From the IMG/VR virus record IMGVR_UViG_3300045996_004605, positions 1 to 39,221 of that record: DNA of 39,221 bases, one strand, 5' to 3'. Under the pieces are notes generated by a model, which saw only the letters and a program-made list of their open reading frames with translations, ran no database searches and was not told where the DNA came from. Numbering within the stretch: the first letter of the stretch is position 1; each line of letters starts with the position of its first letter. Source of the DNA: a virus. Shown in pieces: positions 17,215-32,987 of this stretch. Position numbers and translations under genes: made by a program.

Positions 17215-17240
17215 AAAAAAGAAGCTGGATCACCAGCTTC
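17215..17240 (-). terminator. Rho-independent terminator after major capsid gene
   Basis: On the minus strand a perfect 8-bp stem, GAAGCTGG with CCAGCTTC (17221-17240, loop of four), is followed by six T residues (17215-17220). It lies 28 bases after the capsid stop and 19 bases before the next gene start. It would reduce transcription into the tail genes unless bypassed. Confidence 0.85.
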
Positions 17241-17267
17241 TCTGCCATTTATTTTGAGAATAGACGG

Positions 17268-19960: not shown

Positions 19961-20047
19961 GGGTTAACCCTGTGGGTTGCCCCGGTAACCCCGTTATAAC
20001 GCGTGATAACGGGGGTGCGCGACCCTCCGCATAGTTTCGGAGGGGTC
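19961..20047 (-). other. Cluster of hairpins between head genes
   Basis: The 135-base gap between the F-like gene and the protease gene contains a row of inverted repeats: the 10-bp palindrome GGGTTAACCC (19961-19970), GGGTT/AACCC (19974-19991), CCCCGTTAT/ATAACGGGG (19989-19997 with 20006-20014), and GACCCTCCG/CGGAGGGTC with one bulged base (20021-20029 with 20038-20047). None has a U-tract, so they are not ordinary terminators. They may be an RNA processing, attenuation or antitermination element. Confidence 0.55.
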
Positions 20048-21393: not shown

Positions 21394-22892
21394 GACACTC
21401 GCCTCTTTCGCAGTTCGGCCTCGATGGCTTTGATCTCCCCAATCCCAAGCGCCCCATCGGCTAGTCGCTCGGATTCAATTCGGTTATTGAGAATACGCTG
21501 CCGTTCGGTATCCGCTTCCGGATCGTCCGAGTCATACTCTCGCATCGTCGGAATGTAGGCTTTCAGAAAATCCGCTGCCGAATCCTTACTCAAGAACCCG
21601 CCTTGCACCGCTGTGTCCAGGCCCGTCGTCAGCGCATTGACCGTATCGGCCAGTTCTTTCTCGTCGCGCGGATCGATCTCTTCCCATTCCAATGTTGTCG
21701 CGTACGTCGTGAAGCTTTTTAATTCTGCCTGGCTCGTCATCGCCAACACCATCCGGGCGAGCCGCTGCCAGTTTTCCGTGAAGTTCTCCCGCTTGCGGCT
21801 GATCGTCCGCACAAAGACCGGCATTTGCTCCTTAACACTGGACAACGCCCCCGGCGTATGTACACCCAATACGAATTCGGGGACTTCCGACGTTGAAACA
21901 ATGCAATAAAAGAGAAGCTTCAGCAAACTGGCTGCGTCACCGGTCGAGCTGCGAACCTCAATAAACTCGGCGTCCTCGCCTTCGGTCATAATCAGGAAGT
22001 CGCGTCCGTCGAGCGTGATCGCCCCGCCTTCCTTGGCATATTTCGCCGGATCTTCGATTGCGAAATTATTCCGAAGGAAGGCGGCCACGTCCTTGAGATT
22101 AAACTTCAAACGCGGGGTGGAATGCATTTTCGAACCTTGCAGAGCGTGAAGCATCACATCATGGTACGCTTTCAGAAACGGCTCGATCGGTTCGAGATCG
22201 CTTTGACCAAATTCCCGAGTCTCGTTCTTTTCGTTCTGGAAGTGCTCAATCGGGATGAAGCCCCAGTGATTTTCTTCTTCGAACACATCAGGGAAACCCG
22301 GAATCGAATCGCCTTCCAGCCGAACTTCCCGGCGCTTGGCGCTGATCCGCTGCGTCACGCGGGTTTTGCGCTTGCTGTCGAACTCATCGGTCCATTCCAA
22401 ATTGGATTTCAGAACATACTCTTCCACTTGGCCGGTGAGCGGATTGCGGTTGATCGCATCCACTTCTTCATTCGGAATGATGGTGTACACGAGCCGTGTC
22501 TTTGTCTCCGGGTACAATACTGCATCCGTTTCCTGACGGGAGAGCCAGACAACACAATCGCCTTCCAGCAACGCCTTCTTGTGAGTCCGAGTCATCTTCG
22601 ATGTTTGCCCGGAAAAAAAGTCATTGACCACATCCTTGGCTGCCTCATCTTCAGACAGGAAGGAGGGCACACCGATAAACCCGCTCTTCACATTGATGAT
22701 CGGTTTGCAGAACCCGGCGCCCAGCTTGTACGACTCTTCGGTGTTGTCGTAGAGGGCCCGCGCCAGTTCATAATCGACGCGGCTGCTGTCCAGTTTGTAA
22801 TTCGAGAAGCCACGGCCAACCATCGCACTGGCTCGATGCCGCAATTTGGATACTTCACCGACGGCCCATTTCATCCACGTGCCTAACCCCAT
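21390..22892 (-). CDS. Portal protein (SPP1 gp6-like)
   Basis: This 500-residue protein follows the large terminase and has portal features. The sequence TEESYKLGAGFCKPIINVKSG is a common first-core segment, and PRLKFNLKDVAAFLRNNFAI, VRSSTGDAASLLKLLFYCIV, STSEVPEFVLGVHTPGALSS and WQRLARMVLAMTS follow in the wing-crown order. Length matches the SPP1/Mu gp29-like portals (about 500). The C-terminus (TERQRILNNRIESERLAD and a helix) is the crown. The ATG follows AAGGGG and overlaps the terminase stop by ten bases. Confidence 0.92.
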   Translation of the reverse strand: MGLGTWMKWAVGEVSKLRHRASAMVGRGFSNYKLDSSRVDYELARALYDNTEESYKLGAGFCKPIINVKSGFIGVPSFLSEDEAAKDVVNDFFSGQTSKMTRTHKKALLEGDCVVWLSRQETDAVLYPETKTRLVYTIIPNEEVDAINRNPLTGQVEEYVLKSNLEWTDEFDSKRKTRVTQRISAKRREVRLEGDSIPGFPDVFEEENHWGFIPIEHFQNEKNETREFGQSDLEPIEPFLKAYHDVMLHALQGSKMHSTPRLKFNLKDVAAFLRNNFAIEDPAKYAKEGGAITLDGRDFLIMTEGEDAEFIEVRSSTGDAASLLKLLFYCIVSTSEVPEFVLGVHTPGALSSVKEQMPVFVRTISRKRENFTENWQRLARMVLAMTSQAELKSFTTYATTLEWEEIDPRDEKELADTVNALTTGLDTAVQGGFLSKDSAADFLKAYIPTMREYDSDDPEADTERQRILNNRIESERLADGALGIGEIKAIEAELRKRRVS

Positions 22893-24613
22893 ATTCTCAA
22901 CCCCTTAAATACGCTCAATAATCCGCTATCCAATACCCCCGCGCCTTTTGCAAGCGTTCGGCACGCCTCCAAAGCATCCGGTCCGTCGTCGTGCGCACCC
23001 ATCGGGAACTGCTTCAGTTGTTCCAGCAGCCGTTTATGACGGGCATCGAATTTCATGTATTTGTTTTTGACATCCGGCTGAAGCGTCTGAATCCGCATCG
23101 TTTTGTCGCCGTGTTGGTTTACTTCATCGATAGGGAGGTACAGCCCCAGCTCAGCGGACTTCTCGGCAATCTTCTCCTTGAGAAACCATTGAAACTGGTT
23201 CGTTTCGCATCCCAACTTGGTATAACCCTTGCCAAAGCTCAACCGCAACCAGCGCTCTTTTTCCATGACATCGGTGATGATCACGTCCGGGTGTCGCCGC
23301 TCGATGTCGGCATCCAACACGTATAGGTAGCCGGTGCGGTTTTGTTTGGCGATCGTCACGATGGCCGAGAAGTCGCTTGTTTTCTTCTTGCCCAGGGACG
23401 GATCGACAAACCCGATAAACTCGAAGCCAACGGAGAAGTCCATCGCCATCGGGTTGTAATAGTCGATCCATTCTTCCTGGAACAAGCAGTCCTCGGGATT
23501 GATCGGTTCGTTCTGTTCCTCCGAGTTAAATGACGCCTCTCCTTCCACAACCTTCATCACCATCAGGTCGTAATAGGAGAGCTTGGCTTCCCAAAGCACT
23601 TGCGTTCCGGCCAACATGTCCTCCCGATGATCTTGGAAATAGGCGAGGGCGTCTTGCTCCCGGCTCTCATTGTCCAGATCCGTAAGAATCATTTCCCAGG
23701 CATCCCAAAGATCTTTGCGCGGGCTGAAGGAGAAGACGGCCTTGTACTTCTTCGTCTGATAGCCCGGATTCCGCAGGATGTTCGCCAGCAGGCTGTCGTA
23801 ATGCAGAATCGTACCAATGTAAAAAATGTCCGTATAGGTGTCCCCGGACTTGGATACCGCCTTGAAAAACCAGCTCGCCAGCTTCTTGCGTTGCTGCGGC
23901 GTTTGCACGTTCTCGTCGTTCTCGATGTCGTCGAGCAGGATCAGGTCAGGACGCCAATTCTTATGTTTGCGGCCCCGAACCTTCTTGCCGCTGCCGATGG
24001 CCTCGGCTTTGATTCCGGTGCTGGTCAGAATGACATCGTTCCGCCAAACCTTTCCCTTCAGCTCGCCGAAGTCCTCGCGGATCGCGGCGTTCTCTTCGAA
24101 TTCATCACGAATCAGTTCCAGGAAGCCCTCGGCCTGATCGGAGCTATCGGAGAGAATCAGCACATACCGCTTGTACTCGTACAGAATTGCATGAGCTGCA
24201 TCCTTGAATGTGACATTCGTCGACTTGGCGTGACCCCGAGGAGCGGCGATGGCTTGCTTGCTGCCCGGCAGCTGGTTGATCTTCTTAGCGGCTTCGCTGT
24301 CCATCGGAACGATGTTCTTCAGGACACCTTTGGTCCAAAGCTCGTCCAGCTCGCGATGGAAGTCCGGCGTCTCCCGATTGAAGTAGTGCGAGAAATACGC
24401 CTTGCCGAAATACTCCAGGTCGAGAGCGCCAAGCTTCCGTCGCAAACCTTGCTTCCCGGTCAGCAGCTTACCGTCCCGGTACTGCCTCCGCAGCTCCAGT
24501 CGCTCGGGTGAATCATCCCGAACTAAATACACCTCCATGAGCTGCCGAATGGCATTCGTCTCCTGGAGAGCGCTGAGATCTGTTTTTTTGGCAAAATCTT
24601 TGAGAATACTCAA
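22883..24613 (-). CDS. Terminase large subunit (Mu gp28-like)
   Basis: This 576-residue protein is the packaging motor ATPase/nuclease. A Walker A-like motif APRGHAKST lies at residues 124-132 and Walker B LILLDDIEND at 224-233. The RNase H-like nuclease domain carries FVDPSLGKKKTSDFSA (D404) and the C-terminal HDDGPDALEA (541-550), which supplies the last acidic residues. A TIGTILHYDSLL segment corresponds to the coupling motif. The start codon is TTG (24613) after GGGGGTGA, and it overlaps the stop of a 38-residue frame as TTGA. Confidence 0.94.
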   Translation of the reverse strand: MSILKDFAKKTDLSALQETNAIRQLMEVYLVRDDSPERLELRRQYRDGKLLTGKQGLRRKLGALDLEYFGKAYFSHYFNRETPDFHRELDELWTKGVLKNIVPMDSEAAKKINQLPGSKQAIAAPRGHAKSTNVTFKDAAHAILYEYKRYVLILSDSSDQAEGFLELIRDEFEENAAIREDFGELKGKVWRNDVILTSTGIKAEAIGSGKKVRGRKHKNWRPDLILLDDIENDENVQTPQQRKKLASWFFKAVSKSGDTYTDIFYIGTILHYDSLLANILRNPGYQTKKYKAVFSFSPRKDLWDAWEMILTDLDNESREQDALAYFQDHREDMLAGTQVLWEAKLSYYDLMVMKVVEGEASFNSEEQNEPINPEDCLFQEEWIDYYNPMAMDFSVGFEFIGFVDPSLGKKKTSDFSAIVTIAKQNRTGYLYVLDADIERRHPDVIITDVMEKERWLRLSFGKGYTKLGCETNQFQWFLKEKIAEKSAELGLYLPIDEVNQHGDKTMRIQTLQPDVKNKYMKFDARHKRLLEQLKQFPMGAHDDGPDALEACRTLAKGAGVLDSGLLSVFKGLRIWG

Positions 24614-24726
24614 ATAGCGTCACCCCCGGCGGACAGGCTTCGCCACCCGGCTGCCGTTCGGCGCTGGTTGACGAAGCATGTGTTCCCGGAGATCCCCGGC
24701 CCTGCCGTAACAAGGTGCCGCTTCAT
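24610..24726 (-). CDS. Possible 38-aa coupled ORF between NusG-like gene and terminase
   Basis: This short frame exactly fills the gap between the NusG-like gene and the large terminase. Its ATG overlaps the upstream TGA (ATGA) and its TGA overlaps the TTG start of the terminase (TTTGA), the coupling style seen across this operon. The product is small and basic (KRHLVTAGPG, NQRRTAAGW). No clear ribosome binding site of its own is present and no family is recognised. It may simply keep ribosomes moving into the terminase gene. Confidence 0.4.
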   Translation of the reverse strand: MKRHLVTAGPGISGNTCFVNQRRTAAGWRSLSAGGDAI

Positions 24727-25223
24727 TCCGGTGCTTTTTCCAAAACTTCAATGCCAAAATCAATGTCTTTCGGTTCTCCGAACAACGTGAGTCTCACTGT
24801 TGCCCGGCTCTTGCGCCGATCCACACGGACGATTTGTCCTTCCAGGTGCTTCAGCGGCCCGTCGACGACGGTAATCCTATCGCCGTCTTGCACCTTCGAC
24901 ATTCCGATCAGTTCGCTTTCCTGGCACCAGGTGAGCACATGGGCCATTTCATTGAGCGGTACAGGAGAAGGGGTTGGCCTGCCCAGGATTTCGATCACAC
25001 CATCCGGTGCGACAATTTTGTAATAGCTTTCATTGTCCAGAAACGTGTAAACGAACACATATCCGGGGAAAAGCAGGCGGGATACTTCTTTCGTTTTACC
25101 ATCCCGTCGTTCTATCAGCTTGCGCCGAGGAGTTAACGTTTGAATATGCGGCGCACTGCGGGCGAGTCTCTTCTGAACGTTCAGTTCTTCGCCAGTCAGG
25201 ACATGCAGCACATACCAGTTCAT
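24723..25223 (-). CDS. NusG/LoaP-family transcription antiterminator
   Basis: This 166-residue protein is a NusG paralogue carried by the phage. The N-terminal NGN domain reads NWYVLHVLTGEELNVQKRL, then RLLFPGYVFVYTFLDNESYY and GVIEILGRPTPSPVP. The C-terminal KOW domain reads VQDGDRITVVDGPLKHLEGQ, IVRVDRRKSRATVRLTLFGE and a last strand (FGIEVLEK). Starting with a short N-terminus and a GRPTPSPVPL segment, it resembles the LoaP class of specialised NusG proteins that antiterminate particular operons. ATG 25223 follows GGAGGCCGAGGA and overlaps the upstream TGA. It sits between the terminase subunit genes, in an operon that contains strong terminators. Confidence 0.88.
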   Translation of the reverse strand: MNWYVLHVLTGEELNVQKRLARSAPHIQTLTPRRKLIERRDGKTKEVSRLLFPGYVFVYTFLDNESYYKIVAPDGVIEILGRPTPSPVPLNEMAHVLTWCQESELIGMSKVQDGDRITVVDGPLKHLEGQIVRVDRRKSRATVRLTLFGEPKDIDFGIEVLEKAPE

Positions 25224-25786
25224 TCCTCGGCCTCCAATCGCTCGGCCACCCGATTCGCCACCTGGATGAGTCGTTCGCACAGATCCGGCTCGACGCCTCC
25301 CAGTTCGGCGTACACTTCCTTCTTGAATTCAGCCAATGCCACTTTCGTCCGTTCGGCCAGATCGGCCTTAATTTTGTCTTTATAAATCTTGGTGCGGGAG
25401 AGGGAGACCATGACTCGGGCTGCCTTCTCCAGCGGCATGTCGTCCCATTCTTCCTGCGCCTGGGCGAACTTTTTGGTCAGCTCGCCCGCCATGATTTGAA
25501 GTCCGCCTTCCGTGTAATCCGTATCCGGGTTTTGCTTGATCAATTGGATCAGCGCCTTCGTTTGCTCCTGGGCTTCTTGCAGCCGCTGGGTGGCCCGGCC
25601 AATGCGCAGCGCATAGCGTCCGATGGAACTCTTGGAAACTTCAAATTCATGTTCATCCAGATAGTCGGAAATTTCGGTGTAGGTGTATTTGGTATCCAGC
25701 AACATGGCGTCAACCTGATCCTTGATATGAACCGGCAGATCATCCACCTTCGAGCGAACACGCCGTTTCTTGTGCTGGTCGCCCAT
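25220..25786 (-). CDS. Terminase small subunit, DUF3486 / Mu gp27-like
   Basis: This 188-residue protein matches the DUF3486 small terminase class (Mu gp27). Family features appear in order: RRVRSKVDDLPVHIKDQVDA, YTEISDYLDEHEFEVSKSSI, GRYALRIGRATQRLQEAQEQ, and a helical C-terminal region (IMAGELTKKFAQAQEEWDDM, SRTKIYKDKIKADLAE). The N-terminal half is an HTH domain for recognising phage DNA; the C-terminal half is an oligomerising helix bundle. The ATG overlaps the upstream stop by one base (TGATG). Confidence 0.9.
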   Translation of the reverse strand: MGDQHKKRRVRSKVDDLPVHIKDQVDAMLLDTKYTYTEISDYLDEHEFEVSKSSIGRYALRIGRATQRLQEAQEQTKALIQLIKQNPDTDYTEGGLQIMAGELTKKFAQAQEEWDDMPLEKAARVMVSLSRTKIYKDKIKADLAERTKVALAEFKKEVYAELGGVEPDLCERLIQVANRVAERLEAEE

Positions 25787-26856: not shown

Positions 26857-26898
26857 AAATAAAAAAGCTACCACGAGGCTTTCGCCTATTGGTAGCTT
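26857..26898 (-). terminator. Rho-independent terminator after the Mor-type gene
   Basis: On the minus strand AAGCTACCA pairs with TGGTAGCTT (26865-26873 with 26890-26898) around an inner GGC/GCC stem with a GAAA loop, followed by TTTTTTATTTT. It ends the Mor transcript 52 bases after its stop codon, making the activator gene a single-gene unit. Confidence 0.92.
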
Positions 26899-26950: not shown

Positions 26951-27259
26951 CTAGAAAAGGGTGAGCTGGTTTTCATCTACTTCCGGTATAGACTTGATTC
27001 CCTCGCAAATTTCCCGAATCCGTCGCTCGCTCAAATTATATTTTTTGGCAAGCTGATGGGAATTGCTCCCTCTATATTCCTCTTTGATCTTCTGATCCCG
27101 TATCGGTCGCAAGAAAAAGTCGGAAGAGGGAATATAGAAGGTGTCCCCCTTGGAGTAATCCGCCAGCTTAAGCAGGTTCTCCGTGCCGATCAACTCAGCA
27201 ATGGGGCGGTATCGCTCGGGAATCATATCCGGCGTCAGTTCCTTGATCCAGTCATCCAA
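26951..27259 (-). CDS. mor: Mor/C-family late gene transcription activator
   Basis: This 102-residue protein matches the Mor family. The N-terminal part contains PERYRPIAELIGTENLLKLA, followed by GDTFYIPSSDFFLRPIRDQK (the conserved loop) and a C-terminal HTH, IKEEYRGSNSHQLAKKYNLS then ERRIREICEGI. In Mu, Mor activates the middle promoter and C the late promoters; only one such gene is present here. It has its own promoter (27277-27303) and terminator (26857-26898), and lies between the lysis and packaging genes rather than in the early operon. GGAGGTG lies about 12 bases from the ATG. Confidence 0.9.
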   Translation of the reverse strand: MDDWIKELTPDMIPERYRPIAELIGTENLLKLADYSKGDTFYIPSSDFFLRPIRDQKIKEEYRGSNSHQLAKKYNLSERRIREICEGIKSIPEVDENQLTLF

Positions 27260-32701: not shown

Positions 32702-32710
32702 AATCCAGGC

Positions 32711-32745
32711 GGGTCGCCGTTTGGCAGAACGGCGGCCCTTATTTT
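32711..32745 (+). terminator. Terminator of the plus-strand gene
   Basis: An 11-bp stem with one G-T pair, GGGTCGCCGTT and AACGGCGGCCC (32711-32738) around the loop TGGCAG, is followed by TTATTTT. It lies ten bases after the stop of the plus-strand gene. The same hairpin also sits directly after the minus-strand stop at 32739 and may work in both directions. Confidence 0.85.
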
Positions 32746-32987
32746 ATGGATCGTTCCAGAGCGTCGGCCAATTCTCCAGCCAATCTATCAGCCTCTTGGC
32801 TAGGACTCTTTTCAGGAAAAAACTGCTGGTGAAGGATATAGATCACGCCGTCCGACTTATTAATTCCAGCAACCGTAATGCTGCTTCCATCACGAGAACA
32901 GGAGATGTCTAACGTCTTTCCATCGAGATCGGGCCATTCAAAGCTCGGGATGTTATCGAAAAGACCATTCTCACGTTGATCGCTCAT
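32739..32987 (-). CDS. Unknown early protein, 82 aa
   Basis: I set the start at ATG 32987, preceded by GGAGGG at 5-base spacing, and it overlaps the HNH gene by 17 bases. The 82-residue protein begins SDQRENGLFDNIPSFEWPDL and has beta-rich DGKTLDISCSRDGSSITVAG, then GVIYILHQQFF and an acidic helical C-terminus. It is the last gene before the convergent plus-strand unit and terminator. No family recognised. Confidence 0.65.
   Translation of the reverse strand: MSDQRENGLFDNIPSFEWPDLDGKTLDISCSRDGSSITVAGINKSDGVIYILHQQFFPEKSPSQEADRLAGELADALERSIK

Follow-up and report, generated by a model that had tools for sequence, protein, structure and literature searches.

What does a NusG-like gene do between the two terminase genes of a Mu-like phage, and through which site would its product act? 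The question is posed by a stretch of 39,221 nucleotides (the window), positions 1 to 39,221 of a single IMG/VR virus record, IMGVR_UViG_3300045996_004605. PHROG matches place a Mu-type transposase and a B protein at the high-coordinate end of the window, and by the same profiles the gene order on the minus strand is terS, loaP, terL, portal, head genes and tail genes. The host of this Mu-like phage belongs to the Paenibacillus-type bacteria; syntenic prophages were found in Paenibacillus sanguinis, Paenibacillus popilliae and a Brevibacillus MAG, as well as in two more genomes of the family of genome G001. The order also matches that of Faecalibacterium phage Mushu, where terS and terL overlap with no gene between them. 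A preliminary description of this DNA, made from the letters alone, had put the NusG-like gene between the small and the large terminase gene, coupled by ATGA to the former, and both the sequence and the profile matches of the two neighbours bear this out. The genes concerned are:

Positions 26951 to 27259, minus strand: candidate Mor/C-like late activator gene, at the position of the Mushu gene called 'transcription activator'.
Positions 25220 to 25786, minus strand: small terminase gene terS (phrog_426, E = 4.9e-35), with an ATGA overlap with loaP.
Positions 24723 to 25223, minus strand (read from 25223 to 24723): loaP, 166 amino acids with NGN and KOW domains, a NusG paralogue of the LoaP class.
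Positions 22883 to 24613, minus strand: large terminase gene terL (phrog_38, E = 5.2e-103), the first gene 3' of the RNA element described below.

That the window gene encodes a LoaP and not a housekeeping NusG is strongly supported, with sequence, fold and tree in agreement. The NGN and KOW domains read earlier from the translation were recovered by Pfam (NusG/NGN at residues 1-95, E = 5.6e-16; KOW at residues 114-143, E = 2.5e-4, where the 21.2 bits lie just under the Pfam cut-off of 22.3 bits). The proposed LoaP type was upheld by the NCBIfam model antiterm_LoaP (NF033641), which the protein matches at 161 bits (cut-off 125), and its score against the NCBIfam NusG model, 78 bits, is below the cut-off of 135.7. 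Among solved proteins, the nearest in sequence is 8f5g (103 bits vs 52 for the best NusG), which we take to be a LoaP although the entry, titled 'NusG-RNA complex', itself names NusG. An AlphaFold2 model of the window protein (mean pLDDT 90) gave TM scores of 0.79-0.90 to three 8f5g chains and of about 0.5 to NusG entries. In a tree of 73 proteins the NusGs split off with a support of 100/99, and it is this position, together with the NCBIfam cut-offs, that excludes a housekeeping NusG; in genomes G001, G002 and G003 the nusG of the host is present alongside the phage loaP. Residues E38-R39 of the window protein align with the E-R of 8f5g, and R39 is nearly invariant; the RNA-contact residues of the LoaP of B. 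velezensis are E40, R41 and I143.

NusG-like antiterminators are already known in phages, as phage-annotated NusG genes and as PHROG 6386, the profile that the window protein matches. Sinorhizobium phage phi3LM21 resembles the window in having a NusG-like gene upstream of its terminase genes, although that protein is only about 30% identical to the window LoaP, and no match to the RNA family RAGATH-28 (see below) was found in phi3LM21. The arrangement had been called unusual, which goes too far: of the 50 records with a related terL that were sampled, 28 have LoaP, and in this terL lineage the arrangement is common.

An antiterminator function had also been proposed for the gene at the outset. 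The LoaP identity on which this was built stands, but a probable cis element immediately behind the gene had been overlooked. Its parts are:

Positions 24612 to 24725, minus strand: conserved, structured RNA element of a divergent RAGATH-28-like kind, which starts with the stop codon of loaP and lies in the gap before terL.
Positions 24700 to 24715, minus strand: UNCG hairpin CCUUGU-UACG-GCAGGG, the candidate LoaP-binding hairpin.
Positions 24637 to 24648, minus strand: conserved 3' block of the RNA, GGGUGGCGAAGC.
Positions 24621 to 24627, minus strand: ribosome-binding site of terL, GGGGGUG, whose predicted partner in the minimum-energy fold is CACCUU at 24717-24712.

From the loaP stop to the terL start the window and its close relatives have 109-115 noncoding nucleotides, with blocks that are nearly invariant, and the element is 78-86% identical to its relatives vs 50-63% at third codon positions of loaP. 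It folds better than shuffled sequences (z = -2.6 for the window and -3.2 for L002), and in the predicted fold the outer helix of the window-clade element pairs with the terL ribosome-binding site. The UNCG hairpin starts seven nucleotides past the loaP stop codon (24715-24700), and the closing pair of its loop is U-G. In the whole record, such hairpins with at least six pairs were found only twice on the minus strand and not at all on the plus strand, and the motif is rare in 16 cellular regions (0.008 per kb per strand). In nearly all relatives a UNCG hairpin is found in the same place, N being A, U or G, and is built of a stem, a UU bulge and then either GA-UUCG-UC (gut phages) or GU-UNCG-GC (the window group), while GGNUGGCGAAGC or close variants of it follow loaP in most LoaP phages. 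No compensatory changes were seen among eight close sequences alone. Across 20 relatives, 85.6% of the cells of the 5' hairpin are paired and its covariation score is 0.556 vs 0.157 for shuffled alignments, with no shuffle reaching the observed value and controls slid along the alignment scoring 0.166 at most. An 11-nucleotide complementarity of ACCUUGUUACG to what is presumably the 3' end of 16S rRNA, recognised via the 1492R primer, was set aside because L005 breaks it.

Judged by its sequence, the window RNA is a divergent relative of the Rfam family RAGATH-28 (RF03052). When the window was scanned with all Rfam families, no known RNA was found at E up to 1, and the link emerged only via relatives: gathering-level matches to RF03052 lie between loaP and terL in L093, L100, L104, L105 and L116, and L008 and L175 are likewise above the cut-off. 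The best RNA match of the window at the expected position is to RF03052 (24719-24637, 24.2 bits, E = 6.6e-4 for the record); because this is below the curated gathering cut-off of 45.3 bits, we speak of a divergent relative and not of a member. The alignment is full-length (1-85), and the two RNAs have in common their place, the 5' UNCG hairpin and the 3' GAUGGCGAAGC block, both in register, whereas the inner pairs of the window hairpin are GU/GC in place of GA/UC and the window RNA is devoid of a U-tract. A strict-filter scan of 399 Bacilli genomes with RF03052 gave no match, but it also missed the RNA-bearing G001 and is thus uninformative. RAGATH families owe their names to gene neighbourhoods common to twister and hammerhead ribozymes. 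We found no known function for RAGATH-28, and no paper naming it or tying RAGATH to NusG, in a search outside of which the original RAGATH paper fell.

Phage LoaP and this RNA travel together. A terL-based scan of viral contigs yielded 80 loci, in many of which a LoaP gene lies upstream of terL and is followed by a UNCG hairpin and a GGNUGGCGAAGC-type block. Among the 50 terL-related records, an RF03052-like RNA stands directly after loaP in 26 of the 28 that have LoaP and in none of the 22 that do not, the limit for such a call (E up to 0.02) having been chosen post hoc, with the best match in a LoaP-less record at 0.046. Of the two LoaP records left over, a variant of the RNA can be seen in L108 but not in L009. 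Searching viral contigs with the RNA pattern only returned 18 loci, several of them records already in other samples, and LoaP was upstream in all 18; some of these loci have no detectable homologue of the window terL downstream. A search by LoaP similarity added four more contigs whose loaP is followed by RAGATH-28, with scores above the cut-off in two of them and under it in the others, and the phage-type loaP and the RNA were found in the same four of 396 Paenibacillaceae genomes. Both are absent from L091, L092 and L088, and in L091 another ORF occupies their place. The terL tree contains four independent gains or losses, in all of which the RNA moves with loaP, a number too small for significance (sign test, p = 0.125). 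In the surroundings of 16 cellular LoaP loci (about 16.5 kb per locus), the few matches to the UNCG motif that were examined lie in coding sequence and are taken as chance.

For an RNA that lies directly 5' of terL in the window clade, and whose CACCUU is matched with the ribosome-binding site of terL in the window fold, one may also consider that it mainly governs terL translation: it would mask the ribosome-binding site, LoaP or a terminase protein would open or lock it, and the terminase subunits would thereby be balanced. We regard this as unlikely, since most gut-phage elements end some 200 nucleotides before terL, other genes lie between the element and terL in L107 and L108, and some of the 18 loci found by the RNA pattern have no detectable homologue of the window terL behind the RNA. 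The constant partner of the RNA is loaP, not terL.

Since the RNA accompanies LoaP through many phages, it is probably the site where LoaP boards RNA polymerase. We think there is a good chance that the RNA after loaP is a cis-acting LoaP-loading site that makes late transcription processive, and antitermination in the late operon appears the likeliest role for LoaP. Points that weigh against such a site are the sub-threshold RAGATH-28 score of the window RNA and its missing built-in terminator, the U-G pair that closes its UNCG loop, the want of compensatory changes among the close sequences, the single good terminator further on with a U-tract that most close relatives do not share, the failure to find the motif outside coding sequence near cellular LoaP loci, and the small number of independent gains or losses. 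In lambda (N with nut) and in HK022 (put), antitermination works through an element of the growing transcript that modifies the polymerase, resulting in processive read-through of phage genes. Antitermination by N has been treated as such a modification of polymerase by an RNA element (PMC12691694). The protein and RNA of these systems are unrelated to those discussed here, and the analogy is functional only. The LoaP of B. velezensis requires a UNCG hairpin in the dfn leader as this is transcribed, and at the terminator after that hairpin it counteracts NusA-dependent termination (PMC12691694). Like the dfn and mln leaders with their LoaP, the phage system combines a NusG paralogue of this class with a UNCG hairpin in nascent RNA, which in many of the phage relatives is followed by an intrinsic terminator. 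It differs in its target, which is a late operon instead of an antibiotic cluster, in the position of the RNA, which is behind loaP inside the operon and not in a 5' leader, and in the RNA itself, which is larger, has a conserved 3' block and, in the window clade, is without a built-in terminator. A terminator directly after the UNCG hairpin, as in the dfn and mln targets, is thus absent in the window but present in about ten gut-phage elements, in which a long hairpin with a U-tract at its end encloses the conserved block.

A scenario along the following lines may be envisaged. LoaP would be a product of the first part of the late operon, a part that comprises a holin-like gene, two small genes, terS and loaP. 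The RNA transcribed right after loaP would then display the UNCG hairpin, to which LoaP probably binds as the hairpin exits the polymerase, and LoaP would stay on the elongation complex and render it resistant to termination, which would allow transcription of terL and of the genes for portal, capsid and tail, about 24 kb of the contig. This would amount to a feed-forward arrangement, in which the structural genes are read efficiently only once LoaP has accumulated. In those gut phages where the RNA ends in a hairpin resembling an intrinsic terminator, the element may for that reason act as an attenuator under LoaP control, as the dfn leader does; the window clade has no such U-tract, and there the element would mainly be a loading site for later terminators (17219-17242), and perhaps it also masks the terL ribosome-binding site.

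Alternatively, the RNA could have a function independent of LoaP, in mRNA processing, as a ribozyme or as a packaging signal, and be a hitch-hiker in the module. The naming of RAGATH after the surroundings of twister and hammerhead ribozymes, a hammerhead ribozyme in L110 and the low number of independent gains or losses by which loaP and RNA can be told apart would fit such a function, which we nevertheless hold to be quite improbable given that the co-occurrence was found from both search directions, that loaP and RNA are jointly missing from three loci, and that a UNCG hairpin is the published type of LoaP ligand. That LoaP is instead a moron acting on host transcripts, with no role in the phage operon, is very improbable: although LoaP antagonises NusA in vitro (PMC12691694), so that host NusA might be its target, and Paenibacillaceae hosts have cellular LoaPs of their own, loaP is translationally coupled within the packaging module and linked to a cis RNA, and the published LoaP activity depends on the hairpin.

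Two intergenic terminators with U-tracts were recognised:

Positions 17219 to 17242, minus strand: intrinsic terminator after the major capsid gene, -15.2 kcal/mol with a U-tract, candidate site of LoaP read-through.
Positions 26865 to 26898, minus strand: leader terminator that follows the activator gene and precedes the holin-like gene, -19.9 kcal/mol with a U-tract.

Our first terminator finder called 28 sites on the coding strand vs 35 on the opposite one, and in view of this lack of a coding-strand excess only intergenic sites with real U-tracts were accepted. Terminators were called in 20 of 28 loaP-terL gaps vs five of 22 control gaps, counts that include weak and distal ones, and only about ten of the gap terminators enclose the conserved block; neither the window nor its close relatives have a U-tract in the element. 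The strong terminator previously placed after the capsid gene (17215-17240) is credible at 17242-17219, where the sequence is GAAGCTGG-TGAT-CCAGCTTC-TTTTTT. It is the only good intrinsic terminator among the read-through sites then suggested, and the only good downstream terminator that we found in the window; a clear U-tract at this place was seen in two of the six phages compared (the window and G084), the hairpin of the other four lacking a clear one. What had been taken for a weaker terminator after the tail tube gene is a hairpin (13052-13028) with no good U-tract. The row of hairpins at 19961-20047 does exist, but these are probably not terminators, as they have no U-tract and contain a conserved DNA palindrome instead.

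This palindrome, a near-perfect CCCCGTTATCACGCGTTATAACGGGG at 19989-20014 on the minus strand, is situated mid-record between the MuF-like and protease-like genes; the 19961-20047 palindrome is present in six of six phages compared and is a perfect CGTTATAACGCGTTATAACG in several relatives. Mu has its strong gyrase site at the corresponding central place, and a central DNA site is by this analogy possible at 19989-20014.

At the front of the operon, the candidate Mor/C-like activator gene is kept in seven of seven phages compared, as is the hairpin of the leader terminator (26898-26865), with paired changes. The candidate activated promoter, with an operator-like CGGGGAATCCC at 26936-26926 and a -10-like TAATAA at 26902-26897, overlaps this terminator, and the predicted start of the late transcript falls within its 5' arm. 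The terminator may therefore stop early transcripts while late ones, starting inside it, escape. In the early region, a strong hairpin at 32702-32752, flanked on the plus strand by a T-rich stretch, is possibly a terminator as well.

More generally, we are somewhat inclined to view RAGATH-28 as the cis recruitment and attenuation element of a phage LoaP system, a Gram-positive counterpart of N/nut from which cellular LoaPs may descend. Under this interpretation it is a NusG paralogue, and not a small RNA-binding peptide, that would gate a phage late operon. The cellular LoaPs sampled form a single clade (100/99 in the tree of 73 proteins) that is nested among phage LoaPs, so that the LoaPs of cellular antibiotic operons may derive from the phage system; with two cellular families in the tree (Paenibacillaceae and Brevibacillaceae only), this hints at a phage origin. 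Phage antitermination by a NusG paralogue with an RNA site of its own is undescribed in the papers found, and none of these ties LoaP to terminase genes; most subscription papers, including the original ones on LoaP and RNA, were outside the search. RAGATH-28, an orphan structured RNA family, would gain a protein partner of its own and a function that can be tested, and the reach of LoaP antitermination would extend from antibiotic clusters to phage late operons. The dozens of co-evolving LoaP-RNA pairs also represent a natural collection from which recognition may be read through variation, which is seen in the RNA as GU-UNCG-GC vs GA-UUCG-UC and in the protein as E-R vs I-R.

Several smaller features of the relatives were observed along the way. 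In some gut phages, namely L104 (5667-5690), L151, L102, L183, L184, L187, L196 and L197, the loaP stop codon UGA lies inside the UUGAUUCGUC loop of the RNA, so that a ribosome terminating there would be placed on the hairpin. In L093, L094, L096, L098, L100, L104, L109 and L185, the stretch from the RNA to terL contains clusters of CGTTTAAA-type repeats. The hammerhead ribozyme of L110, which is of type II, is located at 2716-2779 of a contig that has LoaP and the RNA as well.
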